The notes under the pieces are model-generated. The model did not search any database. It had not been told where the DNA came from and worked only from the letters and a program-made list of their open reading frames with translations. A DNA stretch of 63,259 bases, from IMG/VR virus record IMGVR_UViG_3300042112_000104, positions 1 through 63,259 of that record. One strand, given 5' to 3'. This stretch comes from a virus. A program made the position numbers and the translations under genes. Shown here one piece after another: positions 2,988 through 63,259 of the stretch (position 1 is its first letter; each line of letters opens with the position of its first letter).

Positions 2988-2990
2988 ATA

Positions 2991-5320: not shown

Positions 5321-7447
5321 TTAGCAGGGGTTCGATATTTTATACTGAACAGCGGCGGCATTGGCCGCTTGAAGGGCCAAAATGCCAGCCTGCTCTTCTG
5401 CGTGAGCGTAGGAAATGAAAGAAAGAAATGATGCGGAAGCTGTAGCCGATATGGACGGGAATCCAACGCAGGGCAGCGTGACCGTCTTGTAGACCTTGGC
5501 AAAAAACGTCTTATTTTCGCCCAGAGGCCCGTCTAGTGGGCTTGGAAGAATGTCCAGTTTTAGAGAGTCTCCATTTTCTCCAACAACACAGGAAAGCGTT
5601 TCGTTGGCGTTAGGATTGCCAACAGATTTTTCGCTCCACGGGTCTTGGAAGATCCTGACAATTTCAACGCCAAGTTCTCCGCACCATTCGATAAGCATGG
5701 AAAACGCCTTGTCTATATCTGCCGTTAATGGGCTTTCGCAAGTTTCGTAGCGGACATTCCTAGTGGCGCTTTCCGTGACAAGCCTCCTATATTGGGTATT
5801 AAGGAACCCCAATTCATCGATTTCTGATTCAAAAGGCGTATTCTGATACTGATGCCTTTCGCTGATTGCCATTACTCGACGGTCTAAAACCTTTTGGTAT
5901 GCCCCTTTGCTCCCGCGAAAACTTGCCCTCACGTCAACCGTTCCTCCGATTTCCTTGCATTCAATTTCGGCGTAAACGAATTGCTTCAAATCCATACCAT
6001 CACCAAGCTGGGCGGTTTCAATCTGGCTATAAATGCGGTTATAGAATCGCGTTGTGCTTCCGTCTTGATTAATTCGTAGATACGAGTCGGTTCGCTCTGG
6101 CATGAAAGACTCCCACAGGTGGTTATAGGAGCCATCATTTGTCGCGGTGTAATCCAGCGAGAAGTGAAAGCAGCGAGGTTGCCCGTCTACCACTCCTGTT
6201 GTCCATTCTACGGGCCTTGTGCCCTCCCAGACTCCGCACCACGCAGGGTTTCTGGCCTGACCCCACTCAGAGGCAGCGGCATAGTCCAAAACCATTGTGG
6301 CCGAATTTACAGGCTCTAGATATGGAACAGAATAGAGCAAATAGTTTTCAAACGAAGAGGCGCAAATTTGGCTTTGGTTTCCCGTCATGTAGCGTTTGGT
6401 TCGCGCCATTTCCACGTCCTTATACAAAACCTGTGACGAGAGATAGCTCGCGGCAGCAACGTCAGCCGCAACCAACCCGCCTTGCGAATACCACCACATT
6501 TGACCAGCTTGGAAAGCGATGCTTTTGCCTGCAATGCAACCAACGGTAGGATAAAGCGTATTCTGGAAGTTCGCTGTGGATGCCCAAGCGGAACGATCTA
6601 GAATTCCTGAAGCCAAAGAAAATGTAGATCTGTCAGTGAAAACAATCAGGCGGGTGTCGGTGTTTTGTCCTACATACGAAACAAGCCCTGTAACTGGCCT
6701 TGAAAAGCTGAAATCGCCGCGACCAGCGCCAGATGTTCGCTCAAGCCAACTTGTCGGGTCGCCAAGATCAGAAGCCAAAACAAGATTGTTGTCCGCGATC
6801 CACATTCTATTCCCAGAAAACGCCATCCAAGTTCCCACGGGAATTTTGTCACTTTGGACACCAGTTTTGTTAGATCCATCCCAATACGCAGGAGCAGAAA
6901 TACCGTCCTGAATCATCACAATACGATGCGATGGCGTGACCGTTGTATCGCCTCCAGTTGATGTTGTGGCTGATCGTGTTCCCAAAGCGAAAATGCACTG
7001 GCTGGCATCCTCGTCCATTTTTATCCCAGCAAGCCTGTATTCTTCCCAATCTTTGGGTTGCTCAAGAGGGAACGGCGCAAAATAGACGTTCCCGCTAACC
7101 GCAAATACCATGTATGTGAGTTCATCTTTGGCAACTCCGCTTCCGTTCACGTCAAAGATTTGCCTCGGAACGGTAATAAGTTGACCGTTCACTGTTTTCT
7201 TTTCCGCTGCCTGAAACTGTTTATTTGCGGCAAAGAATATTCCGCCCTGCAAATTCCCCGGCGGCAAAGACAGGCGCATCGCATAGCCGGGTCGCGTTTG
7301 GGCAATGCCGCCGCGCACCGTGATATTAACGCCCCATTTTAATTGGTTTTCTGGAAGCGCCCACGCATTTCTGACGCTATTGACGCCCTGAACCCAACCA
7401 GCAGTGCTCTTGGTAAGCCTGCCTGCGTTGATTTGGTCGGACTTCAT
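5321..7447 (-). CDS. Tail tubular protein B-like (nozzle) protein
   Basis: A 708-residue beta-rich protein. Repeated strand-turn units with short Trp/Gly motifs (YWDGSNKTG, WMAFSGNRMWIAD, WWYSQGG) across residues 150-400 suggest a beta-propeller-like body. Size, composition and position just after the N-terminally tail-tube-A-like protein match the podovirus tail nozzle (gp12-like) proteins, although I assign it by architecture rather than a diagnostic motif. Its start overlaps the preceding gene by 4 bases. The C-terminal 60 residues are Ala-rich helix. Confidence 0.65.
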   Translation of the reverse strand: MKSDQINAGRLTKSTAGWVQGVNSVRNAWALPENQLKWGVNITVRGGIAQTRPGYAMRLSLPPGNLQGGIFFAANKQFQAAEKKTVNGQLITVPRQIFDVNGSGVAKDELTYMVFAVSGNVYFAPFPLEQPKDWEEYRLAGIKMDEDASQCIFALGTRSATTSTGGDTTVTPSHRIVMIQDGISAPAYWDGSNKTGVQSDKIPVGTWMAFSGNRMWIADNNLVLASDLGDPTSWLERTSGAGRGDFSFSRPVTGLVSYVGQNTDTRLIVFTDRSTFSLASGILDRSAWASTANFQNTLYPTVGCIAGKSIAFQAGQMWWYSQGGLVAADVAAASYLSSQVLYKDVEMARTKRYMTGNQSQICASSFENYLLYSVPYLEPVNSATMVLDYAAASEWGQARNPAWCGVWEGTRPVEWTTGVVDGQPRCFHFSLDYTATNDGSYNHLWESFMPERTDSYLRINQDGSTTRFYNRIYSQIETAQLGDGMDLKQFVYAEIECKEIGGTVDVRASFRGSKGAYQKVLDRRVMAISERHQYQNTPFESEIDELGFLNTQYRRLVTESATRNVRYETCESPLTADIDKAFSMLIEWCGELGVEIVRIFQDPWSEKSVGNPNANETLSCVVGENGDSLKLDILPSPLDGPLGENKTFFAKVYKTVTLPCVGFPSISATASASFLSFISYAHAEEQAGILALQAANAAAVQYKISNPC

Positions 7448-29880: not shown

Positions 29881-31752
29881 TCACTCGCTAAAGTCTACAA
29901 ACTCCAAATTGTCAACAATAGTTTCTATCGGCTTCTCCATCGGCTCTGGCTTCGGATCGGTCATTGTCGGAACCGCCCCGCCCCTTTGGCGCATCAAATA
30001 GACCAATAAAGACAGGGAGTCCAATGCGTCAGGGCTATTCTGCCTTGTCCGCTTTACAAAGTCCGCCTTGCTCTCTACCCGCACCAATCCCTTCCCTTGC
30101 TGCTTATATCGACGCGATATGGCCTGCTTGACTACGTCCTCGTTCCTGAAACTCGGCGCAATCTTCAGGAACTCAAACTCCAGATACTTCGCCAGCCCGA
30201 AAATCAGTTCGGTCACCACTCCGCTGTATAACTCGTTCGCCTTCTGGCTATCGTCGCCAAGTATACGGGTTTCTGTCGCCGCCCAGCTATAATTCACCCC
30301 CATGACTTCCGATCCAAAAAGGCTACATAAAGAATCGTGGATACCAGCGCCGTTGCCCGTCCGATCCACGCAAAGCCAGTTCGGCCCGATCCGCATCTGC
30401 TTGCAGAACTTGATGATCGCCGTTGTCTGCTCAAGTGTCGCCTTCTTCGGGAAGCTGATCTGCCCATCCAACTGGAGGACAATCTTCGGCTTCTTGAACT
30501 CAATGAACTTCCCATCCCTAGGCGTCCACCCATCGCACAGCCCGAATCGCCCGTGCGAGCACAGCACCTGATCGTTTCCCTCCAAGGCCAAGTCAAATGC
30601 CGCCAGCGGCACCACTGGCCCAATGAACCGCACGTTCCCAATGGAATTGTCCATCATAGCAGGCGTTATGATCGCCATGCTGATGCCCTCCTGCGGGAAG
30701 AAGCCTCGCGCCATCGTGTAGTATTCCGCCGTCTTGCCTCGCGCCTCGTAGGCCATGTAGCCCTCGTAGGTCTGGAAGCCGGGGAACACAGTCCGCCTCT
30801 GCGTCACGTTCTCGCACCGTGCCGCATCCAGCCTCAATACGTGCCACCCGTCCCTGCTTTTCCACTCAAAGTCCTCCTCACAATCCACGCTCATCCACCC
30901 GCGCTCAGGCTCGCACCGTTTCCCGAATTCACTCGTCCTGTCCTTCGGGTTCGACGCTCCGAAAATCTTAATGCGTCCTTTTGCGCCGTCAGTGTCCGCC
31001 GCCGACAAGATGTTCTGCAATCCTTCCCATACGCCAGCGGGAACTTCCTCCGCCTCGTCCAGCACTACATGGGTTCGGCTCATAAGCCCCCATTTCGGAT
31101 GCGGCTTCCCTGCCCTTGGCGCTGGATGGAATCCTCTCAGCGTTCCCGTTCCGCTATCGCCCTTCGGCACTGCAACCAAGTGGATCCCATTCTTGTCATC
31201 GTCGTTCGCCTGAATCGACTTCACCAGTTCCTCGCCGCCCTCATACTCTGGCTTCACCAGCGCCGTCCTATAAAATGTCTTAATCGCCGCAAATACGTTC
31301 CGCTGTGCGTGAGCCTCCGTCAGCGAAACCACTTTAATACACGTATAATAAGGATCACGCATCCAATCCAATAGGAACCATGCCGCCGCATTGAACGTCT
31401 TGCCCATCGCTCCCGCCCCCTGAATCAGCAGTTTGTCATGCTCAAACAGGCATCTCCACGTATCCCGTGCCGACATCGGACGCCAATCGTAAACCGTGTT
31501 CCCCCACAGGATCGTCGCCGCCGCCTCAAACTGATCTTTGTCCAATAAGTCCTGCACATACTGCAGCACTATCGACTTCGCCATGTCCTCATCAATCGCC
31601 TTCGGCATCGTTCCGCCAACCGCCGCCTTCTTCAGAATATGCGCTGCCGCATACAATATGCCCTTATATTCATCGCGCTCAGCCTCTGCACGAATCTCGT
31701 TCGCCAGCGCCAGCGCCATGTTAAGGCTCTTCCTGATCTTAGTTCTTTCCAT
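29881..31752 (-). CDS. terL: Terminase large subunit
   Basis: 623 residues from ATG 31752 (MERTKIRKSL); a longer frame to 31851 overlaps the neighbour. The ATPase domain has QGAGAMGKT (Walker A, 111-119) and VVLDEAEE (Walker B, 229-236). The C-terminal RNase-H-like nuclease has candidate acidic residues in AAFDLALEGND, WLCVDRTGNGAG and SPDALDSLSLLVY. It packages DNA into the procapsid with the small subunit encoded at 34199. The Walker A is of the GAGAMGKT type, seen in other podovirus-like packaging motors. Confidence 0.95.
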   Translation of the reverse strand: MERTKIRKSLNMALALANEIRAEAERDEYKGILYAAAHILKKAAVGGTMPKAIDEDMAKSIVLQYVQDLLDKDQFEAAATILWGNTVYDWRPMSARDTWRCLFEHDKLLIQGAGAMGKTFNAAAWFLLDWMRDPYYTCIKVVSLTEAHAQRNVFAAIKTFYRTALVKPEYEGGEELVKSIQANDDDKNGIHLVAVPKGDSGTGTLRGFHPAPRAGKPHPKWGLMSRTHVVLDEAEEVPAGVWEGLQNILSAADTDGAKGRIKIFGASNPKDRTSEFGKRCEPERGWMSVDCEEDFEWKSRDGWHVLRLDAARCENVTQRRTVFPGFQTYEGYMAYEARGKTAEYYTMARGFFPQEGISMAIITPAMMDNSIGNVRFIGPVVPLAAFDLALEGNDQVLCSHGRFGLCDGWTPRDGKFIEFKKPKIVLQLDGQISFPKKATLEQTTAIIKFCKQMRIGPNWLCVDRTGNGAGIHDSLCSLFGSEVMGVNYSWAATETRILGDDSQKANELYSGVVTELIFGLAKYLEFEFLKIAPSFRNEDVVKQAISRRYKQQGKGLVRVESKADFVKRTRQNSPDALDSLSLLVYLMRQRGGAVPTMTDPKPEPMEKPIETIVDNLEFVDFSE

Positions 31753-32065
31753 GCAGCAACACTGGCTCCAGTATCCAATCCAAATAAGCAGGCGTTTGTT
31801 CTCCTGAGTAACATCCTTCGATGTTGAAGCTGAAGAACTCCTCAGCCTCATCCTCGCTCATCCCCTGACGCATAAGTATCTTTATGCACTTGTCGCGATG
31901 GTAGATCGCAATCGGCTTGTTGAATTGCCTCGCCACTCCGACGAAAGCCTCTTCAAAGCCGTCAGCCAAGATGATCGGCTCATCCACGTCCATCAGTTCT
32001 CCTAGCTTCTTCAGAAGCTGCTTCTTAGTCCTGCACGTCATATGATCCTTTATTAAGAGTTTCAC
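31739..32065 (-). CDS. Conserved small phage protein
   Basis: A 108-residue protein. IILADGFEEAFVGVARQF and then AIYHRDKCIKILMRQGMSE, EAEEFFSFNIEGCYSGEQTP follow the pattern of a small conserved phage family (the F(E/S)FN-x-GxYxGExTP signature) found near replication or packaging genes in many tailed phages. Function unknown. Its end overlaps the large-terminase start by 14 bases, so the two are coupled. Confidence 0.7.
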   Translation of the reverse strand: MKLLIKDHMTCRTKKQLLKKLGELMDVDEPIILADGFEEAFVGVARQFNKPIAIYHRDKCIKILMRQGMSEDEAEEFFSFNIEGCYSGEQTPAYLDWILEPVLLHGKN

Positions 32066-48414: not shown

Positions 48415-48597
48415 TTAGACCTCCACTCCTACGGCTTCTGCCAGTTTGTTGATGTTACCGTTGTCCAATTCAAACGCTAGTTTGATTACTTCGGACTCAT
48501 CGGTTGTTTTCGGATCGTAGTAGATCTCGCCGCCAACGTAGGGAACGGCTTCCCAGCCTTCTGGGCGCTCGTCCCATTCTGAAAGAAGGATGTCCAT
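48415..48597 (-). CDS. Small acidic phage protein
   Basis: A 60-residue acidic protein (MDILLSEWDERPEGWEAV, then EVIKLAFELDNGNINKLA). It begins at the last base of the giant gene stop (TAATG), so it is translated with it. No family recognised. Confidence 0.6.
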   Translation of the reverse strand: MDILLSEWDERPEGWEAVPYVGGEIYYDPKTTDESEVIKLAFELDNGNINKLAEAVGVEV

Positions 48598-51500
48598 TAA
48601 GGTATGATAAGGGGCGGATTGGGGGTTTTCAACATCGAACCTATGATATCGTTGTCGTTCACGGGTCTACCCTCTTTGAGGTTTTGTGACAAGGTCGGAT
48701 GTTGTTTCGCGTAGTTCGGGAACAGGCTGGGCAAGTAAACGGGCGTTTTAATCAGGAAGTTGTTCCCGTTGGCTGGGCCAAGCATCATCCACGGATACGA
48801 GGGATGGACTTTGAACTTCGGATTCTTGAGGAGGGTATCACGCATTTTCCGCTCAGAAGCTGACATTGCCGCCTCTTGTTTCGGGTCTTTGCCAAAATAT
48901 AGCGCAAACGCATCGGGATTTGTCGAAAGCTGAATGACGGCAACTGCCTGACCAACTTTGGAGTTAATCATGTCCTCACTGTCCTGCAGCGCCTTAACCA
49001 CATTGGGCAACTGCGGAAGCCCTGATACCTTCTCCATCGCGGCCCCTCGCGCCGTAAACGAGTATCCCATGAACTCCTGCATGAAGTTCTTGTTGGCTCC
49101 CAAGGCGAGCAGGCGCTTAAACCACGCCTTATTCTTGTTGGCGTTGTAAATCTGCTTGGCCTTGTCCTCGGCTTTTTTCAGGAACTCTGGGGTGTCTCTA
49201 GCGATCCAATTCTTAACGGGTGTAAGCGATTCATTGTATTTAATGATGGCCTTGTCCGTTGGCGTGTTTTTCGGAGGTGGAATAGGGGGCAGACCCTTCT
49301 CACGGCGCTTCCTGTTAAGCGCTCCGCGCTTGATTGCCTCCTTGATCTTGTCCGCCTTCAAGTTGCCTAGCTCCAAAGCAACGTGAGCCATCTCTACTAC
49401 CCAAGGTTCCAATTTGTTTGCCTTATTAAAGGCGTCCATTTCTTGGATATATTCCGTTCCGAAAGCAATATTAGACCTATGGGCATGGTCTTCCATGATC
49501 TGAACGATGTGGTAGCCGTCATCAACGCTTGTCGCCATACGGTTTTTGACCGCTGTGACTTGGTTCTGACCAAGATTCCCCCATACAACCTTGTATTCTT
49601 TGCCGTCAGGCCCAATCACTGTTTCCTGATTCGATATAAGCCAAGGATGCATCGGGCCACCCATGTCTTTGCCAAGCGTATGGTGCCTATCAGCTTGTAG
49701 CATTCCTGCCCTTTTGCCGCTGATAGTGCTGATGTCTTTGACCTCAGGCTCTACAACGCGAGTCGGATCCATCTTAGCCAAGATGACATTGCCGTCAGTG
49801 TCTTCTAGGCCAACATAATAGAATCCGCGCTGAGGAGTTTTCTTCGGCAGTTTGACCCGTCCTTCTTGGGCAACGGTAAAGTCAGCAACGGGAGGATTCT
49901 TGCGCTTGGGAAGAAACTGCGTGAAGCCAGTAATCTCGGCTGCATTAACAAAGCCCTTCTCAAGGTTATTGCCCTCAACATCTATGGGCTTGTCGAATTC
50001 AACCTCATAAAACAAGCGCGATACGTTCTCAGGAAGGTTCACCGTTTTCGGAACGATTTCTGCAATGCCCGTGAGGGTTCCAGAAGCGTCTTGGTTCATT
50101 TTTGTGGCTGCAATTTTGTAGCCCTCAACGTCAGGAACATAAGTTTGTGGCGCGGTTCTCCACGTTTGCCCCTCATTCAGTTCGACCAAATTCTCTAGCG
50201 CTCTCGTCTCTTCGTCATTTTTCGCTACGGCTTCGCCCTCATACTGGAACCCAATGCGCTCCAATGTGTCTTGAATCGTCTCGCCCTCTTCCATTAGGGG
50301 ATTCGGCTCATCGGGAATACGGCGCGATATAAATCCTGCTGGGGTTTCCGTCACTTCATTGAACTCAGGATTCAGCATTTCTTCAATTGCTGCTGCCTCG
50401 TCACGGTCTGCCTGTTCCTGCGTCTTGCCCATCGTGCGCTGATAGAGCAGATCCATCGTCTCTGGTTGGATGTCTACAAAGTCAGACATGACCTGAGCGG
50501 CATTCAGAACATCGTTATTGGCCGAATAGCCGGGGTTGTAGCCCTCTGGGAACGTGCCTGCAGGAGGATGCACGGCAGACATCACATTGGATATATCGAC
50601 TAATATATCGTCAATTGGGCGCTGCATCCCGTTCGGGAAGTTTTCTTTCAGCACCATAAACGGATCAACCCGCTTGCCGCTACGCTTGTCTAAAGCGCCA
50701 ACTTCAGGAAGCGATGCCGCCAAATCCGAAAACAAATCCATCATGTAGCTCATCGCCGTCTTGTTCAGTTCAATGGACTTGGTTAGTTCCGCCGCCCTTT
50801 CTTCTGCGTCTGGCACTGGAATCTCTCCACGGTTCAGGCGCTCCAAAAAGCGTGTATATTGGCGCTGCAAGACAAACGGCTCAAAATCGTCTAAAATCCT
50901 TCGGGCTATGGTGGTCAGGTGAAAAGACCTGTCCAGATTGCCCAAAACCGCTGCAGGAACCCCCGTGAGAGGCACATTGACCAAGTCTAAGGCTCCCTCC
51001 TCAAATCGATCTTTGCGCCGTAGAACGTCATCCTCAGGCAAATTAGGATCCCTTTCGTAGCGCCTGCTCGGCATGAATTCTGGCTGCTGGCCCCTGCGGG
51101 GATCGTTTTCGTCCGTAAGGCGATCAATCGAATCGACCCATTCAATCCACTGCTGCTCGCCGTAACGGCTCTTCATCAGGCTGACGATGGCTTCCTTATT
51201 ATAGCCATATTCGATGGCCTTGGTGCCGTTGGCAAAGTTGATTACCCATTGGGTATTCAGGGCATCATCAAGGAGGCGCTCACTAGACGGCAGACGATCA
51301 AAGTATGCTGGTGTCGCCTCTTGGCGCATCTGCTCGTTTTCTATCTGGTCTTCTAGGCTGGGGATTAGTGACTCAAACCCGTTGATTCGGAGCGTATTTT
51401 CCCAAGCCCCAGCCTGATACTTCGGATTGTCTGTTCCGACAATTGGCGCTTCCAGCGCTTCAAATTGCGCCATCGGAAGACTGTTGTCTTCAAACATCTT

Positions 51501-54500
51501 TTGTAGCTCAGCCTGAGCCTGCTCAAATGTCTTGAACGAGCCGGGGAACAGCAGCTTGGAATCTGCAGAAGAGTCTCCCTCAAAATACAATTCAGGCGAG
51601 AATGCTCCGCGCCCGTCTGGCCCCGGCACGATGCGGATTCGCGCAAGCCAGCTTCCCTTCTTCTTATTCAATTCGCCGTCAAAGCGGACAAACGTAGCAG
51701 GCTCGCGTTGCGGCATGAATTGCGGCTGGCCCTCTTGCTCTACGCGACTAATAACGCTAGGCGATAGATCGATCTTCCACATTGGAACCAATCCCTCAAC
51801 TAGCTTTTTTTGGAAATCTAAAGCCTCTTCAACCGTTTTGAAGCGAGGACTAATCGGCTTGGTATTGTCCTCCATGCTCACCCAAAATTCTTTTTCTGTT
51901 TTGTTCCACTCGCTGCGTAGTCTGGTATCAGTTGCCTGCATACCATATTCTGGAACCCTGAGAAATGTGTCGGCAACCTTGGCCCCATAGGGCTTCATAT
52001 ATTTGCCGATATCGGATGGCTGAACGATATCGTAATAGCCCTTCATGCCTTCGCCACCAATCGTAAGATCTGCTTCAGATATGCTTTGTTCGCTTCCAGT
52101 TGCGGAAGAAGTTATTTGCTGGGCGATCTTGTTCCCCACAATCTCTTTCAATTTAACTTCTGCGGGGCGCTTTCCTTCTGCGGCCTCTCCACGAACCTGT
52201 TCTAGAATGTCTTTTATGCGACCCTCTCCAGCAAGAACGGTTCCATCACTTTGACGAACTCGCGCCGTTCCAATTACACCGGGCGTTTGCAAAACTTCTA
52301 CGTCTTCCCCTTCTGTAACATTCTGATCGTAAATAGGATCACCCTTGTAAAAGAAAACGTCTATTCCGTCTTCTCCATTTTTATAGTATCTGATGTTGTC
52401 AATAATTTGACGCATCATGTCTTGGTATCTTTGGACTTGTGTGACTCCTTTTGTCCATCCAATCCACTCAACCCCGTTTTGAGCAATAGGTTTTGACGGA
52501 ATAGCCATCATCGCTTGCACCGCTTCGGGGCTGGTAGGCCCATAAGCAACTTTATAACGCTCAAAGCGTTCGACTGCCGCATCGAATTCGTTTCTGCGGA
52601 TGGCTTCATCAGAGCTTACAGCCTTTTCTAATATTCGCTTAAACAACTGCAAACCCCAATCGCGCTTAAACGGCATATCGGGTATGCCAGCGAAATCGCC
52701 ATCTTCGGCCTCTTGCCTATTTACCGCAGTGTCAATTAAATTGGATGCCATTTCACCGATAGTAATCGGCACTTGTGTAAGCGGGTCGATTGCTTCGGTT
52801 TGGTCGGCCAGCATTTTTTTCAATGCAGACTTCAATGCAGATGCCTCCATTGCATCGGCTTCTATCCTTGCATCGTGATAAGGCGCATTTCTATCCATCA
52901 GCGGATATGCGCTGATATCGCGTTCAACTTCCTCAATGGTTTTCTTTGCGGCCTCTCCGCTTTGCTTTGCAAGCAACGCAACGTAGATTTCTTCCAAACG
53001 CCACCTATTTAAAGTGTCAATTAGTTTGGCAGGATCTTCTTCGCGCCAGCCATAGTCCCGCCCCTTTTGTGATCTGTCCGATTGGAACTCTTCAATCATT
53101 ATGCCCAAGCGGCCATTCTCATCATAACGATATTTATATCTGACATGGGCCAAATAACCCGGGGTTCGCCTATAGTGTCCTGATCTAAATTCTTTTAGCG
53201 GCTTGCCTTCGCGATTTGGGCGCGGAGTCATGGTTAGAACGGTTTCGTAATAACCGTCTCCTCCAGCAAGCGTCAGTTCCATTGTATTGTATTGCTGCCC
53301 ACCATCAACTGTCAGCAACTCAGGACGGTTTCCGCGAATGTGTTCCAGCAAAAGGTCTTTACTGATTTTCCCTCCGCCTTGAGAGGCCAGCTTATTGATG
53401 ACGTTTATTGCATCAGAGAAAATCACTTCATCTTCCCTGACTTTGTTCGGTGAATTCCAAGCGACTCGCACCGTAGCGTCTTCAGACTCTCTGGCCCGTG
53501 CTGCAGCTTCTGCCACAGCCTTTTGATCAGCGGGGACTCTAGCAATCACAGAAGTCTTTTGCTTGCCGTCAATGGTAGCAGTCTCCGTGACAATATATTC
53601 GCCAAGCATTGCTTTTGCTTGTTCTGGAGTTACGAACTTGCCCTGAATCTTGCTATTTAGCGTTCTTTCAAGCTGACTGTAGAACCCTTGTTCGCTTGTC
53701 GGCTCTTTCATTTCCCTGCGGGGCATAAATGTCGGAAGGCTGTTCGTGTTTACAGCATCTGCAAGCGCTGGCGTGATCGGGAATATCCACCCTTCGTCGG
53801 CGTCGAGATAGTCAATGTTTTTACGCTTCTGCGCTTCGCCCACGGCTTTTTCAAGCGTCTTGTATTCTGCTACAGCGCGATCAGGGGCGGTTGGATCCAT
53901 TGGGTCTTGAGGATCTTTCATGCCCAAATAAACCAACTCTCCAGTGCCTTGATCCTGTGGCTTGGGAACCTGAAACGGAAACACTTTGCTGCCGTATTTC
54001 TTCAGGAATTTGTTAACTTCATTTACGGCAATCTCATCATAATAAGGCTTGAACTTCAGACCTCCGAAAAACGTAGATCCGCGCTTTGGTTTGATGGTGT
54101 CGCTAATTCCCTCTTTGCCCTTGCGGACAATTTCATCGGCCATTTCCTTCGGAATAATTTTGTCAAGAGCCTTGCCCTTAAAATCAAAACGTCCCATGCC
54201 GGGCGACATCTCGCTAAAAATGATCTCTTTGGTATTTGGATCGACAGTCAAATAGGCATATATCCCGCTGGAAGGATACAGCAAAACCTCCATCTGCCCT
54301 GCATCGTTGACCGATCTATATTCCACCTTTTCCAAGGGAACCAAATCGCGCCAGCGTTTGGCCTGCGTTTTGCCGCCTGACCAATAAACATACTTGTGTC
54401 CGCTTTTAACTGCATCAACGATTTGATTTTTGATCAAAGCCAAGCCCCACTCGCGGCTTTGGCTGAATGGAGCCTCAGGAGGAGCTTCGGCATTTTTTGG

Positions 54501-57500
54501 TATTTTATCTCCAGCTTCTACGCGCAACTTGATCTGCGGCTTTGGAAGTCCGCTGGTGTCCAAAACCCCGCCCTTCATTTGCAGTTTGGTGCCAGATTGT
54601 TTGGATGACTGTATGGCAAGAGAAGCGGCCAACTTTGGATCGGTGCCATATGCCTCCATATAATCGTCCAAGTATTGTTCGGCATCTTCGCGACGATCAA
54701 AATCGCGTTTTAAAGCAATATCAGGGCCACCATCAACATTCAGAATCACTTGGTAGGATTGCAAATACTCGCGGTAGCCAATGGGATTACCACGGCTATC
54801 TTTTTGGCGAGCGGCTTGGTTCCTGTCGCTCTGCATTTCATGGATATGGCTGATGTCAACCAAGTGGCTGGATCCTGTTCCTCCATACATATCCATTGCA
54901 ATTTTGGGTGAAGCAAACCACCACTGACGGTATGCCGCATAAAAATCCGCTTCTTGCGGAGTGATTGCTCCCGCCTTAACTGCAGGCCCAAGACTGTCTA
55001 ACGGAATAGACTCTCCTTCTTTTTTATAAGACTCAGGAGCTTCTGGCCCGTAAAAATGCGTTGCTATGGCCTTTCCGATTTCTGGAATGGTTCGTAGTGT
55101 CGGATCAACAATTTGCCGATCACCAACGCGCATATGCGCTATGTAATACGGATAGCCTTCGTAATGCGTCTCGCGATATTCCAAACCTTCGGCGCGACCC
55201 CTGTTACTAAGCTGAAAATCTAGCTGCTTCTCTTTGTTCAAACTGCGAGCTACGCGCTCGGCTTCGGCTCTGGTTTTATATCTTGTGACGGGATCGGCAG
55301 TGTGCGGGTAGAATTTAGCGCCCTTCTTAAATACAATCTCGTATGCTCCTTCAAGTGTGACTTTTTCTTTCGGAACTTTTCTTACGCTATACTCAACCAC
55401 TTCAAGGTTCGGACGAATCTGCAGGATTTTCTCCCTGTAGTTCGTGTCGCCGGGGATTCTATATCCAGCATCACCGTATTTTGTTTGCGGGACATCCTGA
55501 AATCCTCCAATGGCCTGCGGCCAGAACCCGCGCATCCCGAAATAGTTGTTGATGTTGTAAAGGCGCTGTGTCGGGTCTTTGACCATCCCGTTAATCCGCC
55601 AATGCGTCTGTGACCGTTTTTCTTCTGCAGAAATCATGTAATCCATCTCTAGGAGATTGATTTCGCTTTCATCCATAGCGCGGTCACGATTACGAACAGC
55701 CTCATCAAGTTTTCTCATGGCCTTAGCTGCGGCGAGATCTTTGTCTTTTGCCGCCTCTAGTTCCCTGCTGGCAGCTTCTCGCTCGGCTATGTATTCGTCA
55801 TTTATGCGTTGAAAATCACGATCAGCAATTCGATCACGCTTGTCTTGTAGTTGATGCGCCCTTTCGTCTGCTGCCTCAGCAGTCAATCGCGACCAACGCT
55901 CTGCTTCTTCAACGCCAAAGTCATCGATAGCCTGAAGAGCCTTTAAGACGGCATATTTATCAATATTCCACCCAGCATCAGCCAGTTCTCCTAGAACCTC
56001 GCTCTTGATCACGCTGCTCGGCTGGCGGATTCGGGCTTTTTTCAATGCTGCCTGCGCTTCTTGTTCTGAAAGATAATATTGGAAGCGAGAAACATTGATG
56101 TCTGGAGTCCAGATATTTCCAGACTCATCATAAATTCCCCACGATCCGTTGTTGGGATCTTGTTTAACAGTATAGTTCCCAAGAAGATCAGGAATCCGAT
56201 TGCGAGCTTCTGTCTCAAGATTCAGGTAGCGGTCATACAAGGCATCAAGTTTCTGCGTGAATCGCTTCCCAGCAGGAGAAATATTCTTCCAAGAAATGGC
56301 TCGCTCGCCAGATTCTTGACCACCAAGAATGCTTAGCATGAACTTCACGTTATTCTGACGGAGATACTCCATCAGATCAGCTTTGTTTACGTTCTTGCCA
56401 TCAGTGCTTAGCGTATCGATTGCCTCGTTGATTTTACTCCATTCAATTTCGGCAGGCTTAATGCCATTCTGCGGGTTATTAATGATGGCCCTGACCTGTT
56501 CGACTGTTGCTGATTTACCCTGAATCTTTTCATCCAGCGTTCCCTCAAGCCTGCTGCTGAAGCCGGGGTAAACACGCTCATCAATCGTTAGCTCTCTCCT
56601 TGGACGCATGGGCATGAACGCAGCAGCCTCTCGGAGATCTCGGAGAGATTGCAATTCGTTTACGTATTCAGGCCCATATGCCTCGCCAAAAGCGTCTCCC
56701 ATTGCCGCCTCTTCATCTTCTAGAACGCGCAAACGATCACGCTGTTCGGAAGTCATACGGAATCCTTGTTCTTCCACCGCTTCAGGCTGACGAATTCCGC
56801 CCTCACGGCGAGGCATGAAGTTGGCCTTTGCCAATCCGTAGGCCACAGGCATTTTGGGAAGAGATGTCGGAGCAATTTGCGCTATATGATCAATGCGGAC
56901 AGACATGATCGTCCTGTCCATGTTTAAATCGCGAGGATCTCCTTTTCGGCGGGGAACCTTGGTTCTGTCTGGGTTTACGCCCTCCGTAGCAGTGTCAAAT
57001 AGGTTCAAAAAGTCGTTGAAGACGTTGCGCTTCATTGCCGCGACTTGCGGATCTGCATCAAGCAATCTTGCTTGTGGGCTGGCGACCTGACCACTTTCCG
57101 TGTATCCACTGCCGGGCAATCCCTGTTGCCAGTTATAAAGATATTTCTGCGTGAATTCGTTCCAGAATTGTTCTTTGCTGCCCTTCCAAGGCATCAAACG
57201 TGCAGGCATCCTGTCGCCCCATGCATGGAGCTTATCAAACATCCGTCCAACCGAAATGGCAGTGAACAGGAAGTTGCCAGCCTTGGACATCATCAACCCA
57301 ATCGGCACCAGATCATAATACTTCGGAGAAAACGCCTCATATTCGCCCTTCTCATTCATCATCGCGGCATAATTAATGAGATACCGCGAGCCATCGTTGC
57401 GAACCAACGCATCGTTGATGTTCAAAATAACGTCTTTGATGCTTTTCGGCAGAATGGTTTCTGGAAGACTTTTAATGGCCTCGACCTGTAATGGACTGAG

Positions 57501-60500
57501 GGTTCCGCGATAGGTTTCTCCGCCCTCCTTGGTCGGATCAAAACGATTGGGAGCACCATAATCGGGGGTGTCTAAAGCCTCGCGAATGATCTTGTTTCGC
57601 TGCTTGAGTATTTTCTTAGCCTCTTTTGGCTGATGGAACCTAGGCGTTACCCCGTCTGGCTGCATTGCAACCTGACGGGCAACAACAACTTTGCTTCCTA
57701 CGGGGATGCCCTGAATATTGATCTCTGCAGCCAAAGGCCCGTATCCATTGCGTTGCTGTGGGCCAGCATCTGTGATGTCCCAAGAGCCTTCATACACCAT
57801 TGGCCCTGTGAGGACTTGCGGAGAGCCAATGGCGCTGCCATCTGGGCCTATAATTTGCGCCTGAACCTCAGTAACTGGCAGCGGACTGTAAGTTCCGAAT
57901 GTTTCTAAAAGGGCTTTATTCCTGACCAGTTCTGACCGTGTAATTTTAGGAGCCTGCTTGCCTTTTACTGCAGGACTAAGCTGCCCCTGAAGGTCAATCA
58001 TTGCCTCAAGGGCTTCTCTTGCGAGTAATTGAACTTCTGGAGTAAATCGCGCTCCGCTGTTGTCCGAAATAATGTCCTGTGCGTCAGGGATGTTGAGAAG
58101 CCTCTTCATGTCTGAGAGCTTCTTGGAAAGCGTCTCAAATTTTGCGCGTTTGAAGGCGAGCGTTGCTTTGTCAAAAAGCACTTGAACAACGGGAGGAGGA
58201 TTTTTGCCGAAAATCCTGCTCATGCTGTCAGCAGCTAGATCCGCTGTGATCTCTTCACGCAACTTGGCAGCAGCTTCCTTTTGATTTATGACGATTTGAC
58301 CAGTTTGCGGATCTCGTAGAATTTCGTTGGTCACTGGATCGCGCTGTGCCACAGAAGCCAAAAAGAATTCGGGATTAACCGCTGTGCCTGCGTAAACATT
58401 AACATATAGGTCTGCCAACTCTGCTTCGGTTAGTCCCTCGCCAACTTCCGCTACAACCTGACCATCGGCATTGCGGATCTCTTCTTTGAACAAGATCCTA
58501 TAAGGCTCAGCCATTAGCTGCTGATATTCTGGTATTTTGCTCAGATGGTGTCCCGCTTCATGCCGCAATGCCGTCAACGGATCCTGACCATTGTTGATTC
58601 TTCGGATGACGGCATCGGTGTTAACCACCATCGTCGGTTTAGCATCGTCCATGACGATCTTAGGCCCACGGAACTTTGGGATTCCGCCATACATGACGGT
58701 ATCATCTATGGTTCCATCATAGAATCCGTCCTGCTCAGCATAGGCACTGATAACATCTTCACTTTCGTTCGGATATTTGGCCCGTAAATGATCTTTGATC
58801 TGTTGTGTGCTGAGCAATCGAATGCCGACATTGTTTTGCCCACGAACAAACCCACCATTAGCCAAGCTATGAATTCCAGCTAGGGTCAGAAGATACTGCC
58901 GTCCAAATTCGTTGCGCGTTTGGACGTTGGCTCGCTTCATTCTTTCAAGAGCCTTCTGGTTGTTCGCCAAAACTTGCTGAGTCGCTGCGATAATTTGCGG
59001 GTTATTTGTGGCTTGGGCGGCTTCATATGCCCTCGCCGCTTGATCAGTGCGCTGCTGCTGGTTGTTGATGACAACTTGCCAATCTGTCATGGCATCTACG
59101 TTACCTCGGTCAACAGGACTCAGGTCTTGGTAGGCTTTCCAAGCCTCAACATCTTCTTTGCGTCTCCGCCGTGCATCGTAAACGGGATCGTCCATCCCGA
59201 ATGCTTTGTTCATCAATCGGGTTTGTGTGCGTCCCAAGCTAGACCAAAGCACTCCCTGCCCCATCATTGCCGCCATTTCCTCGGCGTCTTGAGAGTCCGC
59301 AATGCCAACAGCCAAGCCAACCAAAGTAGGCTCCACGCCTGCCCTGATATACTCCCTAGTGTTGTCGATAATGCTGTCGAGGCGCTTTCCGCCTGATGCT
59401 GTGAGCCTATCGCTTAATCCGCCCTTTATTGGAGTGACGCGAATTGGCTCGCCGCCTTCCGCTCGCGGGGCACCCCTGCCAGCCTGACGGTCACGGCGGA
59501 GCTTTGACATCGTTTCAAACGTCCCTGCCTGACCACCCGCCGAAAGGCGCTTCGCTTCGTAGTAGTTTCGGATAAATTCGGGCGTCGATTTGAGCATCCG
59601 CGCTCCAATCAATCCGCCAATAACGCCAAGCGGCGAGTCTGGCTCTAGTCCATAGCCAATGCCAGCGCCTGCAATATATGGAGAAACTTGCCTGACCTTC
59701 TTGAAGAATTCGCTTCGATCAATGGCCTCTTGCGCTTTTTTAAGCGATTCATCAACGGCAACAGCGGTCTTTTCTCTTTTCGTAACCCGCTGACTTTTTT
59801 CAAAATTGGCTTGCTGCTTAGACTTCAATTTTGCCGCATCTTCAGCAAGAAGGCGATTCACTTCGTCAGGAGTCTTTCCTCTGAATCGGAGATAACTCGC
59901 CACTTTTGGAGTGGCATATGAACCCAATTTCAAAAGGTTCATGCCGTAGCCGACAGCATCCAAACCAAACCCTTCTGGCAGCAAAATCTCGCCAGCGGTC
60001 ATAATATCTGGATCCATCTCAGGAATGAGCTTTTTGGCCTCTGCAACTCCCTCAAGGGCACCAATCGTCATTGCCTCAAGATCGCTTTGTCTCGCCTCTA
60101 TGGCCTGTTCGCGGGTAAATCCATTTTCCCGCATATAGTCTTCAACGGTTCCAATAGTAGAGGTTGCCGCTGCATTGACCGCTGGAGCTAAAAACTCCAG
60201 ATATCGATGGTATGCCGTGGGATTGACCGATTCAAAATCGTATGCCGCTCCTTCAAAATTCTTGCGAGCCTTCCAGCGCTCAAAACTCGTATCATAACCG
60301 TTCAAGCCAATACCCTCGCTGAGCAAATCCCATCCCTCAATGCCGCCAGCGCCCATTTTCTGACCAATTTTGGCAAGCTGGTATGGAAGATCTACAGCAG
60401 GAGCAACAAAAGCCATCGGCGCTGCTTTGGTTCGCTCAATAACCCCTTGCTGGGTTTGTAAAATTTCAGCGCGTTGTTCTGGGGTATATTCTTCTAGAAC

Positions 60501-61406
60501 AAGGTCTAAATATTCCTTGCCAGTGAATTCAATTCCTCCACCAGTATATCCCGTTTGAGGGTAATACTCCCCGATTCTTTCAGTTACTCTTTCCCGTGCG
60601 CGAGGAGGCAACTGCGAATGAAGCTGCCATGCAAGATTGTAGTCTTTGCCAGTAATTTCACCAAGCGCTACATCTCTTGCAAATTTTGCAGTTCCTTTTC
60701 CAACGCCAACAAGCGTCTCGCCAAACATAACGGCCATGTCGATTGGGAATTTCCCAACGGCACCACCAAGATTAAGCCAATCCTTGGAATCTTTCGGAAC
60801 CTTCCACGCGCTGTTTTGGCGAATATAGTCGTAAACCTCGCGCTCCTGTTTGGCATTTAGAGGAATGTCTGGCCTGATTTTTACAGCCTCGGCAAGTTCT
60901 TCAACGCTTAACGAATCCCGCAAATCCATCATGTTGGAATCCATCTCAAACCCGCGCTGATCAGCGGCCAGCTTGAGGAAAATGTCCAATGGCTTTGTCG
61001 AAACCTCTTCTTTTGTCTCTTCTGGTTTCGGCTGGGTAATAATTTCGGGCGTTTTTGTCGGCTCTTCTTGCCTGAACGGAAGCATCCATGCTTTCCAATC
61101 CTGTGGCGGGGCGCTTATTTCCGCGCCTCGCGTCATTTGTTCTATTGTCGGCTTTCCGCCTTCAATCTTCGGAGGCTCTGGATTCGGCGGCAGGGCAGGC
61201 GCTGGTTCTGCTTTTGCGGCTTCTGTTAAAGGCTCTGGAACAGTTCCTTTTTCAGGAACAACGGCAGGCAACGCCATTTTCTCGCGCCTAAGAACCTCCT
61301 CCGCTTCGGCAAGGATATCAGATGCGGGAGTCAGGGCGGATTCGCCCTCTTTTTCTTTATTGAGAGCTTCTTCCGCCTCCCGCAAAATTTCTTCGGCGGT
61401 AGCCAT
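48597..61406 (-). CDS. Giant polyvalent protein with zincin and tandem modules
   Basis: A 4269-residue protein, 20% of the genome. N-terminus: two copies of an acidic helical repeat (EEILREAEEALNKE and DILAEAEEVLRRE, 1-45); hydrophobic/amphipathic region about 210-790. A zincin motif RHEAGHHLSK with HEAGH at 949-953. Then two tandem copies of a large module, at about 1616-2470 and 2575-3225. Each has a QLERTLN-like helical start (with KIQGK), an E-x-QSD-R-x-Q motif (E2190; E2773), a W..G..Q.[KR][RY][WY] motif and a GGxxxKxYYD-type end. FMPxR linkers recur near 1530, 1599, 2559, 3229 and 3442. The C-terminal part has HHTLGKDMGGPMHP (about 3919). This matches phage large polyvalent proteins, injected with DNA to counter defence. 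Confidence 0.85.
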   Translation of the reverse strand: MATAEEILREAEEALNKEKEGESALTPASDILAEAEEVLRREKMALPAVVPEKGTVPEPLTEAAKAEPAPALPPNPEPPKIEGGKPTIEQMTRGAEISAPPQDWKAWMLPFRQEEPTKTPEIITQPKPEETKEEVSTKPLDIFLKLAADQRGFEMDSNMMDLRDSLSVEELAEAVKIRPDIPLNAKQEREVYDYIRQNSAWKVPKDSKDWLNLGGAVGKFPIDMAVMFGETLVGVGKGTAKFARDVALGEITGKDYNLAWQLHSQLPPRARERVTERIGEYYPQTGYTGGGIEFTGKEYLDLVLEEYTPEQRAEILQTQQGVIERTKAAPMAFVAPAVDLPYQLAKIGQKMGAGGIEGWDLLSEGIGLNGYDTSFERWKARKNFEGAAYDFESVNPTAYHRYLEFLAPAVNAAATSTIGTVEDYMRENGFTREQAIEARQSDLEAMTIGALEGVAEAKKLIPEMDPDIMTAGEILLPEGFGLDAVGYGMNLLKLGSYATPKVASYLRFRGKTPDEVNRLLAEDAAKLKSKQQANFEKSQRVTKREKTAVAVDESLKKAQEAIDRSEFFKKVRQVSPYIAGAGIGYGLEPDSPLGVIGGLIGARMLKSTPEFIRNYYEAKRLSAGGQAGTFETMSKLRRDRQAGRGAPRAEGGEPIRVTPIKGGLSDRLTASGGKRLDSIIDNTREYIRAGVEPTLVGLAVGIADSQDAEEMAAMMGQGVLWSSLGRTQTRLMNKAFGMDDPVYDARRRRKEDVEAWKAYQDLSPVDRGNVDAMTDWQVVINNQQQRTDQAARAYEAAQATNNPQIIAATQQVLANNQKALERMKRANVQTRNEFGRQYLLTLAGIHSLANGGFVRGQNNVGIRLLSTQQIKDHLRAKYPNESEDVISAYAEQDGFYDGTIDDTVMYGGIPKFRGPKIVMDDAKPTMVVNTDAVIRRINNGQDPLTALRHEAGHHLSKIPEYQQLMAEPYRILFKEEIRNADGQVVAEVGEGLTEAELADLYVNVYAGTAVNPEFFLASVAQRDPVTNEILRDPQTGQIVINQKEAAAKLREEITADLAADSMSRIFGKNPPPVVQVLFDKATLAFKRAKFETLSKKLSDMKRLLNIPDAQDIISDNSGARFTPEVQLLAREALEAMIDLQGQLSPAVKGKQAPKITRSELVRNKALLETFGTYSPLPVTEVQAQIIGPDGSAIGSPQVLTGPMVYEGSWDITDAGPQQRNGYGPLAAEINIQGIPVGSKVVVARQVAMQPDGVTPRFHQPKEAKKILKQRNKIIREALDTPDYGAPNRFDPTKEGGETYRGTLSPLQVEAIKSLPETILPKSIKDVILNINDALVRNDGSRYLINYAAMMNEKGEYEAFSPKYYDLVPIGLMMSKAGNFLFTAISVGRMFDKLHAWGDRMPARLMPWKGSKEQFWNEFTQKYLYNWQQGLPGSGYTESGQVASPQARLLDADPQVAAMKRNVFNDFLNLFDTATEGVNPDRTKVPRRKGDPRDLNMDRTIMSVRIDHIAQIAPTSLPKMPVAYGLAKANFMPRREGGIRQPEAVEEQGFRMTSEQRDRLRVLEDEEAAMGDAFGEAYGPEYVNELQSLRDLREAAAFMPMRPRRELTIDERVYPGFSSRLEGTLDEKIQGKSATVEQVRAIINNPQNGIKPAEIEWSKINEAIDTLSTDGKNVNKADLMEYLRQNNVKFMLSILGGQESGERAISWKNISPAGKRFTQKLDALYDRYLNLETEARNRIPDLLGNYTVKQDPNNGSWGIYDESGNIWTPDINVSRFQYYLSEQEAQAALKKARIRQPSSVIKSEVLGELADAGWNIDKYAVLKALQAIDDFGVEEAERWSRLTAEAADERAHQLQDKRDRIADRDFQRINDEYIAEREAASRELEAAKDKDLAAAKAMRKLDEAVRNRDRAMDESEINLLEMDYMISAEEKRSQTHWRINGMVKDPTQRLYNINNYFGMRGFWPQAIGGFQDVPQTKYGDAGYRIPGDTNYREKILQIRPNLEVVEYSVRKVPKEKVTLEGAYEIVFKKGAKFYPHTADPVTRYKTRAEAERVARSLNKEKQLDFQLSNRGRAEGLEYRETHYEGYPYYIAHMRVGDRQIVDPTLRTIPEIGKAIATHFYGPEAPESYKKEGESIPLDSLGPAVKAGAITPQEADFYAAYRQWWFASPKIAMDMYGGTGSSHLVDISHIHEMQSDRNQAARQKDSRGNPIGYREYLQSYQVILNVDGGPDIALKRDFDRREDAEQYLDDYMEAYGTDPKLAASLAIQSSKQSGTKLQMKGGVLDTSGLPKPQIKLRVEAGDKIPKNAEAPPEAPFSQSREWGLALIKNQIVDAVKSGHKYVYWSGGKTQAKRWRDLVPLEKVEYRSVNDAGQMEVLLYPSSGIYAYLTVDPNTKEIIFSEMSPGMGRFDFKGKALDKIIPKEMADEIVRKGKEGISDTIKPKRGSTFFGGLKFKPYYDEIAVNEVNKFLKKYGSKVFPFQVPKPQDQGTGELVYLGMKDPQDPMDPTAPDRAVAEYKTLEKAVGEAQKRKNIDYLDADEGWIFPITPALADAVNTNSLPTFMPRREMKEPTSEQGFYSQLERTLNSKIQGKFVTPEQAKAMLGEYIVTETATIDGKQKTSVIARVPADQKAVAEAAARARESEDATVRVAWNSPNKVREDEVIFSDAINVINKLASQGGGKISKDLLLEHIRGNRPELLTVDGGQQYNTMELTLAGGDGYYETVLTMTPRPNREGKPLKEFRSGHYRRTPGYLAHVRYKYRYDENGRLGIMIEEFQSDRSQKGRDYGWREEDPAKLIDTLNRWRLEEIYVALLAKQSGEAAKKTIEEVERDISAYPLMDRNAPYHDARIEADAMEASALKSALKKMLADQTEAIDPLTQVPITIGEMASNLIDTAVNRQEAEDGDFAGIPDMPFKRDWGLQLFKRILEKAVSSDEAIRRNEFDAAVERFERYKVAYGPTSPEAVQAMMAIPSKPIAQNGVEWIGWTKGVTQVQRYQDMMRQIIDNIRYYKNGEDGIDVFFYKGDPIYDQNVTEGEDVEVLQTPGVIGTARVRQSDGTVLAGEGRIKDILEQVRGEAAEGKRPAEVKLKEIVGNKIAQQITSSATGSEQSISEADLTIGGEGMKGYYDIVQPSDIGKYMKPYGAKVADTFLRVPEYGMQATDTRLRSEWNKTEKEFWVSMEDNTKPISPRFKTVEEALDFQKKLVEGLVPMWKIDLSPSVISRVEQEGQPQFMPQREPATFVRFDGELNKKKGSWLARIRIVPGPDGRGAFSPELYFEGDSSADSKLLFPGSFKTFEQAQAELQKMFEDNSLPMAQFEALEAPIVGTDNPKYQAGAWENTLRINGFESLIPSLEDQIENEQMRQEATPAYFDRLPSSERLLDDALNTQWVINFANGTKAIEYGYNKEAIVSLMKSRYGEQQWIEWVDSIDRLTDENDPRRGQQPEFMPSRRYERDPNLPEDDVLRRKDRFEEGALDLVNVPLTGVPAAVLGNLDRSFHLTTIARRILDDFEPFVLQRQYTRFLERLNRGEIPVPDAEERAAELTKSIELNKTAMSYMMDLFSDLAASLPEVGALDKRSGKRVDPFMVLKENFPNGMQRPIDDILVDISNVMSAVHPPAGTFPEGYNPGYSANNDVLNAAQVMSDFVDIQPETMDLLYQRTMGKTQEQADRDEAAAIEEMLNPEFNEVTETPAGFISRRIPDEPNPLMEEGETIQDTLERIGFQYEGEAVAKNDEETRALENLVELNEGQTWRTAPQTYVPDVEGYKIAATKMNQDASGTLTGIAEIVPKTVNLPENVSRLFYEVEFDKPIDVEGNNLEKGFVNAAEITGFTQFLPKRKNPPVADFTVAQEGRVKLPKKTPQRGFYYVGLEDTDGNVILAKMDPTRVVEPEVKDISTISGKRAGMLQADRHHTLGKDMGGPMHPWLISNQETVIGPDGKEYKVVWGNLGQNQVTAVKNRMATSVDDGYHIVQIMEDHAHRSNIAFGTEYIQEMDAFNKANKLEPWVVEMAHVALELGNLKADKIKEAIKRGALNRKRREKGLPPIPPPKNTPTDKAIIKYNESLTPVKNWIARDTPEFLKKAEDKAKQIYNANKNKAWFKRLLALGANKNFMQEFMGYSFTARGAAMEKVSGLPQLPNVVKALQDSEDMINSKVGQAVAVIQLSTNPDAFALYFGKDPKQEAAMSASERKMRDTLLKNPKFKVHPSYPWMMLGPANGNNFLIKTPVYLPSLFPNYAKQHPTLSQNLKEGRPVNDNDIIGSMLKTPNPPLIIP

Positions 61407-61407
61407 G

Positions 61408-63225
61408 TTAATCTACAGCAATAGCGGATTCCATTTCTGCTTCCAGAGTTTTCTTCTGCTCCAAAAGCGTTTTTAGTTCGGAGAATTTCGTGTTGTATTC
61501 TTCAGTGCCCCTTGTGAGTCCTGTCATCTCGGAAACTTTCGCTCTAATTTGCGCCTCTACGTCTCCAAGAGGGTCTGGAGTTTTCAGGTCAATAGCCACC
61601 ATTTCGGGCCTTGCCCCAGATTGTTCGGCCAGCCTTTTATAAATCGACGTTAGCTGGTTCTGCCCCCGTTGACGCTCCATAAACAGTGATTTGCCCTGCT
61701 GAACAAAGTTTTTCCGCTGTGCTGGAGCAAGTCTTCCGCCGCTGAGCAATCGGTTATATTCGGCTCTGATGCGGTCAGGAACGCCTGCAGCATTCTGAGC
61801 GTTTGCAAACTCTTGTTCTCGGACAACGCTGCCGGGGTCGAGCAGCTTCATAAAGCTGAAGATCATCGCCAAGTCGCCAGCGCCTTCGCCACCTGATTCT
61901 GCCATCCTTGCGGCACTTTTGATGTTGGCCCAAGCATTTTGAACCACCATGTAGTCTTTAGACGCAGCAATAAACTCCTTGCGGAGCTTTTGTTCTGCAT
62001 CAGCGTCTGGGCCTGCGGTTGCCGTTGTTGTGGTTCGGGCTTTTTCCAGTTCAAGACGCGCCTTTTCTAGGGCCAATCGATCTGCCTCTGTTTGTGGTTC
62101 TTTCATCTTCGGAGGCATGACCTCCCAATATGTTTCGCCAGTTTCGTTATCGACGCGCTGCTCAACCACAGGGCGCTCGTAGTTTTCGGGCATTGGCATT
62201 TCGGCCACCTGACGCGCTGCCTCAAACGTGGGATACGCGCCCGGCTCAAATCCAGCGGGGAATTCGGTTGCGGGGGCTGGCATTTGCGCCAACGGGGCGG
62301 CAGACGCAGCGGCATTACGCTCCAAAGCGCTACCAAGAACAGCGCCACGCACTTGCTGCCGCAATTCCTGCATCTGTCGCTCAGTTTCTGAGGGAATGTA
62401 AGAGACATTTACGGGGGCGCTTAGATCGGTAAGCGGAAGTCCCATTGCGCCTGCAGGCATTGTTGGGGGAACGCCTCCTGCTTGAGCCACGCCATATTGA
62501 GCAGCGGCTTCTGGAGTAATCCTCATATCTTGAGGAGCAACAACATCGCCTGCGCGTCCAAAAATGTCTTCTGTGCCGACAGCGCCCGGCGTGAATACTG
62601 GAGGCGGAGTTAAATTAAACAGCGAACCGCCAGCGGGAACAGGAGCGGGAAGTCTTTCGTCAATCTCTTCTTCCTCAGGAAGCGGCTCTAGTTCGGGCAA
62701 TGGTTCAAGAGGAACGTCTTCTGGAGCGATATTGAGATTTGGATCAACAGGAGTTATCCCCTCGCCATCTCCCTGATCCATTGGTTGACGTGGAGGCTCA
62801 CCAACCATCCTGCGAGGCGGCTTTTTGTTTCCTCCAACTTCGCGCAGACGATTCGCGGCAGCTTCTCTCAAATAATTGATGCGAGCCTGAAGCGCTTCTG
62901 AAGAACGTGCAGATTTAATCGCTTCTATATCAAGATCCCTGCTGTGCTTTCTTTCTTCGGCTTCAAGGCCGCGCTGATACTCCATAACAGACCCATATCC
63001 CTGAAGTGCGCTCTGTCCTATATTCCCAATTGCTCCATAAAGGGCTGTTGCTGGCAGTTCAGCGTTTTCATCGCCAACGGCATATGCTCCAGCAACATCT
63101 CTAGAAAATTGAGATGGAGAAACTACAGGCACAAAAGGACTTAATCCTTCGAGAGCAGATGTAATCTTTGCCTGCCTTGGATTGAATGTGTATCCAGACG
63201 TTTCTCTAGACATTTGCGCTGCCAT
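61408..63225 (-). CDS. Large ejection-type virion protein
   Basis: A 605-residue protein from ATG 63225, with GGAGG upstream. The first 150 residues are helical/amphipathic; 150-330 are Pro/Glu/Ala-rich and disordered. The C-terminal part contains SGGEGAGDLAMIFSFMKLLD, PGSVVREQEFANAQNAAG and RIRAEYNRLLSGGRLAPAQR, a conserved segment I recognise from virion-ejection or transfer proteins of podovirus-like phages. It ends 1 base before the giant gene start. Its first 67 codons are repeated at 1-202. Confidence 0.75.
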   Translation of the reverse strand: MAAQMSRETSGYTFNPRQAKITSALEGLSPFVPVVSPSQFSRDVAGAYAVGDENAELPATALYGAIGNIGQSALQGYGSVMEYQRGLEAEERKHSRDLDIEAIKSARSSEALQARINYLREAAANRLREVGGNKKPPRRMVGEPPRQPMDQGDGEGITPVDPNLNIAPEDVPLEPLPELEPLPEEEEIDERLPAPVPAGGSLFNLTPPPVFTPGAVGTEDIFGRAGDVVAPQDMRITPEAAAQYGVAQAGGVPPTMPAGAMGLPLTDLSAPVNVSYIPSETERQMQELRQQVRGAVLGSALERNAAASAAPLAQMPAPATEFPAGFEPGAYPTFEAARQVAEMPMPENYERPVVEQRVDNETGETYWEVMPPKMKEPQTEADRLALEKARLELEKARTTTTATAGPDADAEQKLRKEFIAASKDYMVVQNAWANIKSAARMAESGGEGAGDLAMIFSFMKLLDPGSVVREQEFANAQNAAGVPDRIRAEYNRLLSGGRLAPAQRKNFVQQGKSLFMERQRGQNQLTSIYKRLAEQSGARPEMVAIDLKTPDPLGDVEAQIRAKVSEMTGLTRGTEEYNTKFSELKTLLEQKKTLEAEMESAIAVD

Positions 63226-63259
63226 AATTAAGCCCCTCCGTAAGTTAAGTTAGATGCGG
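63024..63259. repeat. Right copy of terminal overlap repeat
   Basis: Matches 1-236 with a single silent difference (63151). It contains the start region of the 605-residue gene and the end of the gene whose full copy is at 205-936 (63228-63259 here). Confidence 0.95.

Follow-up and report, generated by a model that had tools for sequence, protein, structure and literature searches.

The locus examined here raises the question of why a single phage gene should encode the same large module twice, and what these modules and the chain around them may do. The window, by which we mean the whole stretch of DNA analysed (63,259 nucleotides, IMG/VR record IMGVR_UViG_3300042112_000104), has ends (1-236 and 63024-63259) that share a 236-base overlap with a single mismatch, so that the genome is probably complete, circular or circularly permuted, and about 63,023 bases long. 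Its large terminase (29881-31851) had no tblastn match in a cultured-phage collection, which places the phage lineage far from described isolates. The giant protein (Table 1) has full-length or partial IMG/VR orthologs (L002, L003 and L005; 77-90% identity) in which both module copies are kept and in which, besides the HEAGH signature, the downstream E1051/E1052 are invariant. No convincing match was found for the whole protein or its modules in Pfam, PHROGs, NCBIfam, PADLOC or PDB sequences, nor did residues 1616-3230 give any tblastn match in cultured phages. A Pfam search of the giant protein likewise returned no family for the HEAGH segment, which is putatively zinc-protease-like as judged from its motif. 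One giant chain thus holds a HExxH segment, two modules of predicted acetyltransferase (GNAT) fold and other modules, separated by short tags, and the protein is a phage polyvalent protein, a known class. In the available part of the account of that class (PMC5512222, Iyer et al. 2017), the features in common are the giant multi-domain chain, the HExxH segment, the mixed modules and the lack of a conserved single function.

Table 1. Features of the giant protein, listed from its N-terminus; coordinates refer to the window.
Feature	Residues	Coordinates	Strand	Basis or remark
Giant polyvalent protein, 4,269 aa		48597..61406	-	open reading frame
HEAGH zinc-protease signature	949-953	58548..58562	-	sequence; invariant in orthologs
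Junction tag FMPRR	1530-1534	56805..56819	-	
Junction tag FMPMR, just upstream of module A	1597-1601	56604..56618	-	
Module A, first E-x-QSD GNAT-fold (predicted) copy, long inserts	about 1616-2560	53727..56561	-	family profile
EMQSDRNQ of module A	2190-2197	54816..54839	-	sequence
GGLKFKPYYD of module A	2448-2457	54036..54065	-	sequence
Junction tag FMPRR, between modules A and B	2560-2564	53715..53729	-	
Module B, second E-x-QSD GNAT-fold (predicted) copy	about 2563-3232	51711..53720	-	family profile + AlphaFold2
EFQSDRSQ of module B, end of strand 4 in GNAT-sheet model	2773-2780	53067..53090	-	
GGEGMKGYYD of module B, start of helix alpha-4 in model	3117-3126	52029..52058	-	
Junction tag FMPQR, end of module B	3230-3234	51705..51719	-	
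Junction tag FMPSR	3444-3448	51063..51077	-	
Window-only module, ~122 aa	~3709-3830	49917..50282	-	absent from two orthologs
Variant junction tag FLPKR	3831-3835	49902..49916	-	orthologs: MLPKR

That the protein contains two copies of one large module, as an initial annotation had claimed, is borne out by three comparisons. Direct BLASTP of module A against module B gave E values of 8e-7 and 8e-6, and profile-profile comparison of the copies, using the window and its orthologs only, gave 1e-7 and 2e-7. An independent family profile from other phages matched module A at 1614-2561 (134 bits, E 4e-43) and module B at 2564-2931 (73 bits, E 1e-24) and 2975-3236 (86 bits, E 1e-28); both modules match this one profile with the motif order preserved and are members of the E-x-QSD family. 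The annotated motifs, among them KIQGK (1627 in A, 2586 in B) and W-x-x-G-x-x-Q (WSGGKTQ at 2342, WTKGVTQ at 2984), all lie at the residues given for them, E2190 and E2773 included, except that QLERTLN is exact in the second copy only. Also the tandem order stands, but the spacer between an end at 2470 and a start at 2575 does not, since the first copy runs to about 2560 and the second begins at about 2563. The annotation held in addition that such a segment is single in other polyvalent proteins, and this is not always so: two copies are present in L057, where they are sisters in the tree, and in L102, where they are not. The case of L102, the low identity between A and B, and the long branch without a clear neighbour on which either falls when placed without the other are what separate acquisition of A and B, in place of tandem duplication, would lead one to expect. 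Yet the tree places A and B side by side (SH-aLRT 84, possibly by long-branch attraction), and both have a derived SD-R instead of SD-W; we regard separate acquisition as a possibility with the balance somewhat against it.

Of all features of the giant protein, the repeated FMPxR tag, which the initial annotation had missed, is probably the one that tells us most. FMP.R was observed 5 times where 0.016 occurrences were expected, 50 shuffles of the chain produced nothing like it, and a further 229,253 aa of large ORFs contained none. The tags are kept in the orthologs and their copies use synonymously different codons. The window-only module ends exactly at the variant tag FLPKR, so that close relatives differ at one tag by an entire module; the start of this module is overlapped by a sub-threshold peptidoglycan-binding match alone. 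Two candidate marks were set aside. An FMPER in a 708-aa protein (5321-7447) is a probable coincidence as a further junction: orthologs conserve it, but its surroundings look globular. That protein has a weak internal-virion-protein match, and FMPER is conserved in two relatives. The tail 'GQPLF' was rejected as sole evidence of cleavage because stand-alone chromosomal proteins share that ending. Stand-alone bacterial E-x-QSD proteins also terminate in LPLFG, and the tag that closes an E-x-QSD domain is in part the C-terminus of the domain itself.

Repeated tags of other form are found in other polyvalent proteins. In a protein from a Nitrospirales MAG (L155), unrelated modules are separated by FAPR, which is present six times, and FSPK occurs four times in L136, FSID three times in L165 and FSRR three times in L133. 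For a general test we took proteins 1,400 aa or longer, read the tetrapeptide that closes the E-x-QSD domain, counted its recurrences elsewhere in the same chain and compared the count with 10,000 permutations, which ignore kinship among the proteins. There were 22 recurrences against 2.26 expected (0 of 10,000 permutations, kinship ignored), and 14 against 1.93 (again 0 of 10,000 with kinship ignored) after removal of the three proteins that had suggested the idea. A second set, defined by the ends of ART domains, gave 11 against 2.35 with the same 0 of 10,000, kinship being ignored here too. When the first set was controlled for offset, recurrences numbered 16 against 1.07 at the junction, and none of twelve further offsets came near this. 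For the second set, the signal of a strict 4-mer count was weaker (4 against 0.84), and the neighbouring offset gave 6 against 1.59. One short motif is therefore found at several junctions of the same chain, as in a polyprotein. A literature search of open-access papers returned no described junction motif for polyvalent proteins. In gp31 of Pseudomonas phage vB_PaeM_USP_25 (4,899 aa; L277 688-15387), FSRD and FSRS flank an ART-like module, and this protein offers a way to test the tag idea in a cultured phage.

Processing of polyvalent proteins by their metallopeptidase has been proposed (PMC5512222), and the available part of that account gives no junction sequence for it, whereas the window protein has FMPxR. 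The repeated tags fit a self-processed polyprotein, with putative cleavage at the tags: they would lie between unrelated modules, take a form specific to each protein and mark a point of module gain because the parts are released there. The HEAGH segment would be the natural candidate protease. Since L133 and L146 repeat tags and have no HExxH, the cutting need not be done by a zinc protease, whose standing as the only candidate is weakened. The tags could also be marks of cassette exchange at conserved linkers, as a by-product or as a requirement of the linker, and not protease sites, for which the presence or absence of the whole ~122-aa module at one tag among close relatives would speak. 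However, the tag copies differ by synonymous codons and by F/Y swaps, so that the tags do not have one DNA sequence in common for recombination, and the recurrence of the tags is protein-specific; we consider cassette exchange in place of protease sites rather unlikely.

The domain that the tags enclose twice is a widespread phage family. An IMG/VR scan for EIQSDWHQ gave at least 120 contigs; the family profile was built from 93 non-redundant members, the family alignment has 89 members, and conservation was counted in an alignment of 71 sequences (A3). The domain is found in small ORFs adjoining portal genes and in many giant proteins. It is also carried by gp34 of the T7-like Pelagibacter phage HTVC028P, which adjoins a putative internal virion protein gene, before the tail fibre, and has one copy as against two in the window protein. 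None of the 71 members scanned in Pfam had a convincing match, the few below 0.01 being to unrelated families that each matched one or two members, and NCBIfam had no match for three canonical members or the window protein. In PHROGs the domain was matched only within a 2,564-aa lysis-labelled family, the 'endolysin' polyvalent family PHROG 7348, at about 1787-2076 of the profile; this family is named from its lysis domain and its E-x-QSD part is unnamed. The available part of the PMC5512222 account of polyvalent proteins has no description of the domain and does not contain 'QSD'. Stand-alone E-x-QSD proteins of about 440-560 aa are present on bacterial chromosomal contigs of up to 896 kb, and one set (L168-L190, for example L178, L187, L174 and L171; 436-558 aa) lies on contigs of Beta- and Gammaproteobacteria, some longer than 400 kb, at a distance from obvious phage genes. 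For these domestication is possible. In L187 the stand-alone gene is a few genes upstream of ORFs that resemble SbcD/SbcC by sequence.

The initial annotation had seen in both copies a conservation like that of an active site, and the wider family agrees with it. Every one of the 71 sequences of A3 has the same His, Arg, Glu, Gln, Ser and Asp (the E-x-QSD part belonging to the search pattern for most rows), and both copies keep them. In module B numbering the invariant positions are H2744, R2756, E2773, Q2775, S2776, D2777, Q2780, G2786 and P2912, of which H2744, R2756, G2786 and P2912 lie outside the search pattern, and Y3125-D3126 is near-invariant; the module A equivalents by sequence are H2081, R2093, E2190, Q2192, S2193, D2194, Y2456 and D2457. 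E-x-QSD is also present in members found by protein similarity and not through the pattern (EMQSDLLQ in HTVC028P gp34, ELQSDWGQ in MW202675).

Structure prediction, which had been proposed with the annotation, returned GNAT topology with large inserts for module B (pLDDT 79.4, pTM 0.78) and the same plan for L077 (517 aa; pLDDT 81, pTM 0.78), the two sequences being about 26% identical. Both AlphaFold2 models run beta1, helices, beta2, beta3, beta4 (ending in E-x-QSD), alpha3 (WxEL), beta5 (W-T-x-G), alpha4 (YYD/FYD), beta6 and beta7, which is the GNAT order of strands and helices plus three large inserts, after beta2, beta4 and beta5; the family Glu (E253 or E213 in the models) lies at the end of strand 4. 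With VIA-align all 50 listed rows were GNAT or GNAT-like chains for each model, the best Z being 10.2 (L077) and 9.6 (module B), on a scale on which scores up to 8 may reflect background. The chains alike in strand and helix order include the toxins KacT, AtaT and TacT, NatD, Gcn5 and the GNAT-like C-domain of M. tuberculosis ICL2 (Z 8-10 over about 125-157 residues). Unlike these, the E-x-QSD domain has the three inserts, a mostly degenerate CoA loop and no significant Foldseek or sequence match: Foldseek alone gave no match below E 0.001 in the PDB for either model, and in BFVD the modelled fold had significant matches to phage proteins that are uncharacterised or polyvalent. Only 10 of 71 members have the classical CoA loop Q/R-x-x-G-x-G/A after strand 4, [QRK]xxG[aromatic/His] is kept after beta4 in 67 of 71, and module B reads R-D-Y-G-W-R at the position of the loop. 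For this reason we speak of a GNAT-fold domain and do not classify it as a GNAT acetyltransferase. It is predicted to be a remodelled GNAT fold, and the E-x-QSD modules may bind acyl-CoA and carry out acyl transfer. By analogy with GNATs, E2773 could serve as base and Y3125 as acid.

Since the CoA loop is degenerate in most members, both modules could instead be catalytically dead structural parts derived from GNATs, such as spacers in a conduit for ejection, duplicated for length or assembly. Family members in the positions of internal virion proteins would agree with this, as would the W-H pair that 67 of 71 rows keep and the window copies have lost. Strict invariance of the six residues across very divergent members argues the other way, and stand-alone versions on bacterial contigs that keep the motif are hard to explain for a virion spacer. 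We find this reading rather improbable and prefer that of modules with transferase activity.

Our explanation as a whole, which we hold to be about evenly balanced between right and wrong, is that of a polyvalent polyprotein with tag-closed modules. In the course of events that we infer, from virion delivery through cleavage at the tags by a given protease to catalysis with its donor and substrate, several modules, each closed by F-M-P-x-R, would be made in one chain with the zinc-protease-like HExxH near its N-terminal part. The chain would most likely enter the virion together with the DNA, and the relatives among virion and portal genes are compatible with such delivery. Its own protease, or another of phage origin, would then cut the chain or release its parts at the tags, after which modules A and B may act in the host as paired acyl- or aminoacyl-transferases with different targets, side by side as two effectors and not as one two-headed enzyme. 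The annotation's own proposal, in which the modules would be a pair of new anti-defence enzymes that enter together with the DNA, would suit the location of relatives among virion genes and the proposal (PMC5512222) that polyvalent proteins as a class counter host defences, but PADLOC and family searches were without match and no defence link was seen. Both copies might just as well be non-catalytic, and we think the anti-defence version improbable.

More generally, and with somewhat less than even confidence, we suggest that polyvalent proteins may be true polyproteins, each with its own tetrapeptide code (FMPxR, FAPR, FSPK, FSRR, FSID and others) where unrelated modules join, a co-evolving protease that recognises it and stepwise release of injected effectors, among whose commonest pieces would be an unnamed remodelled GNAT-fold enzyme. 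The predicted fold and the list of invariant residues give the E-x-QSD domain its first testable function. The junction tag, predicted from sequence, bears on whether and where polyvalent proteins are cut and, if true, would allow modules to be delimited automatically in many giant phage proteins.
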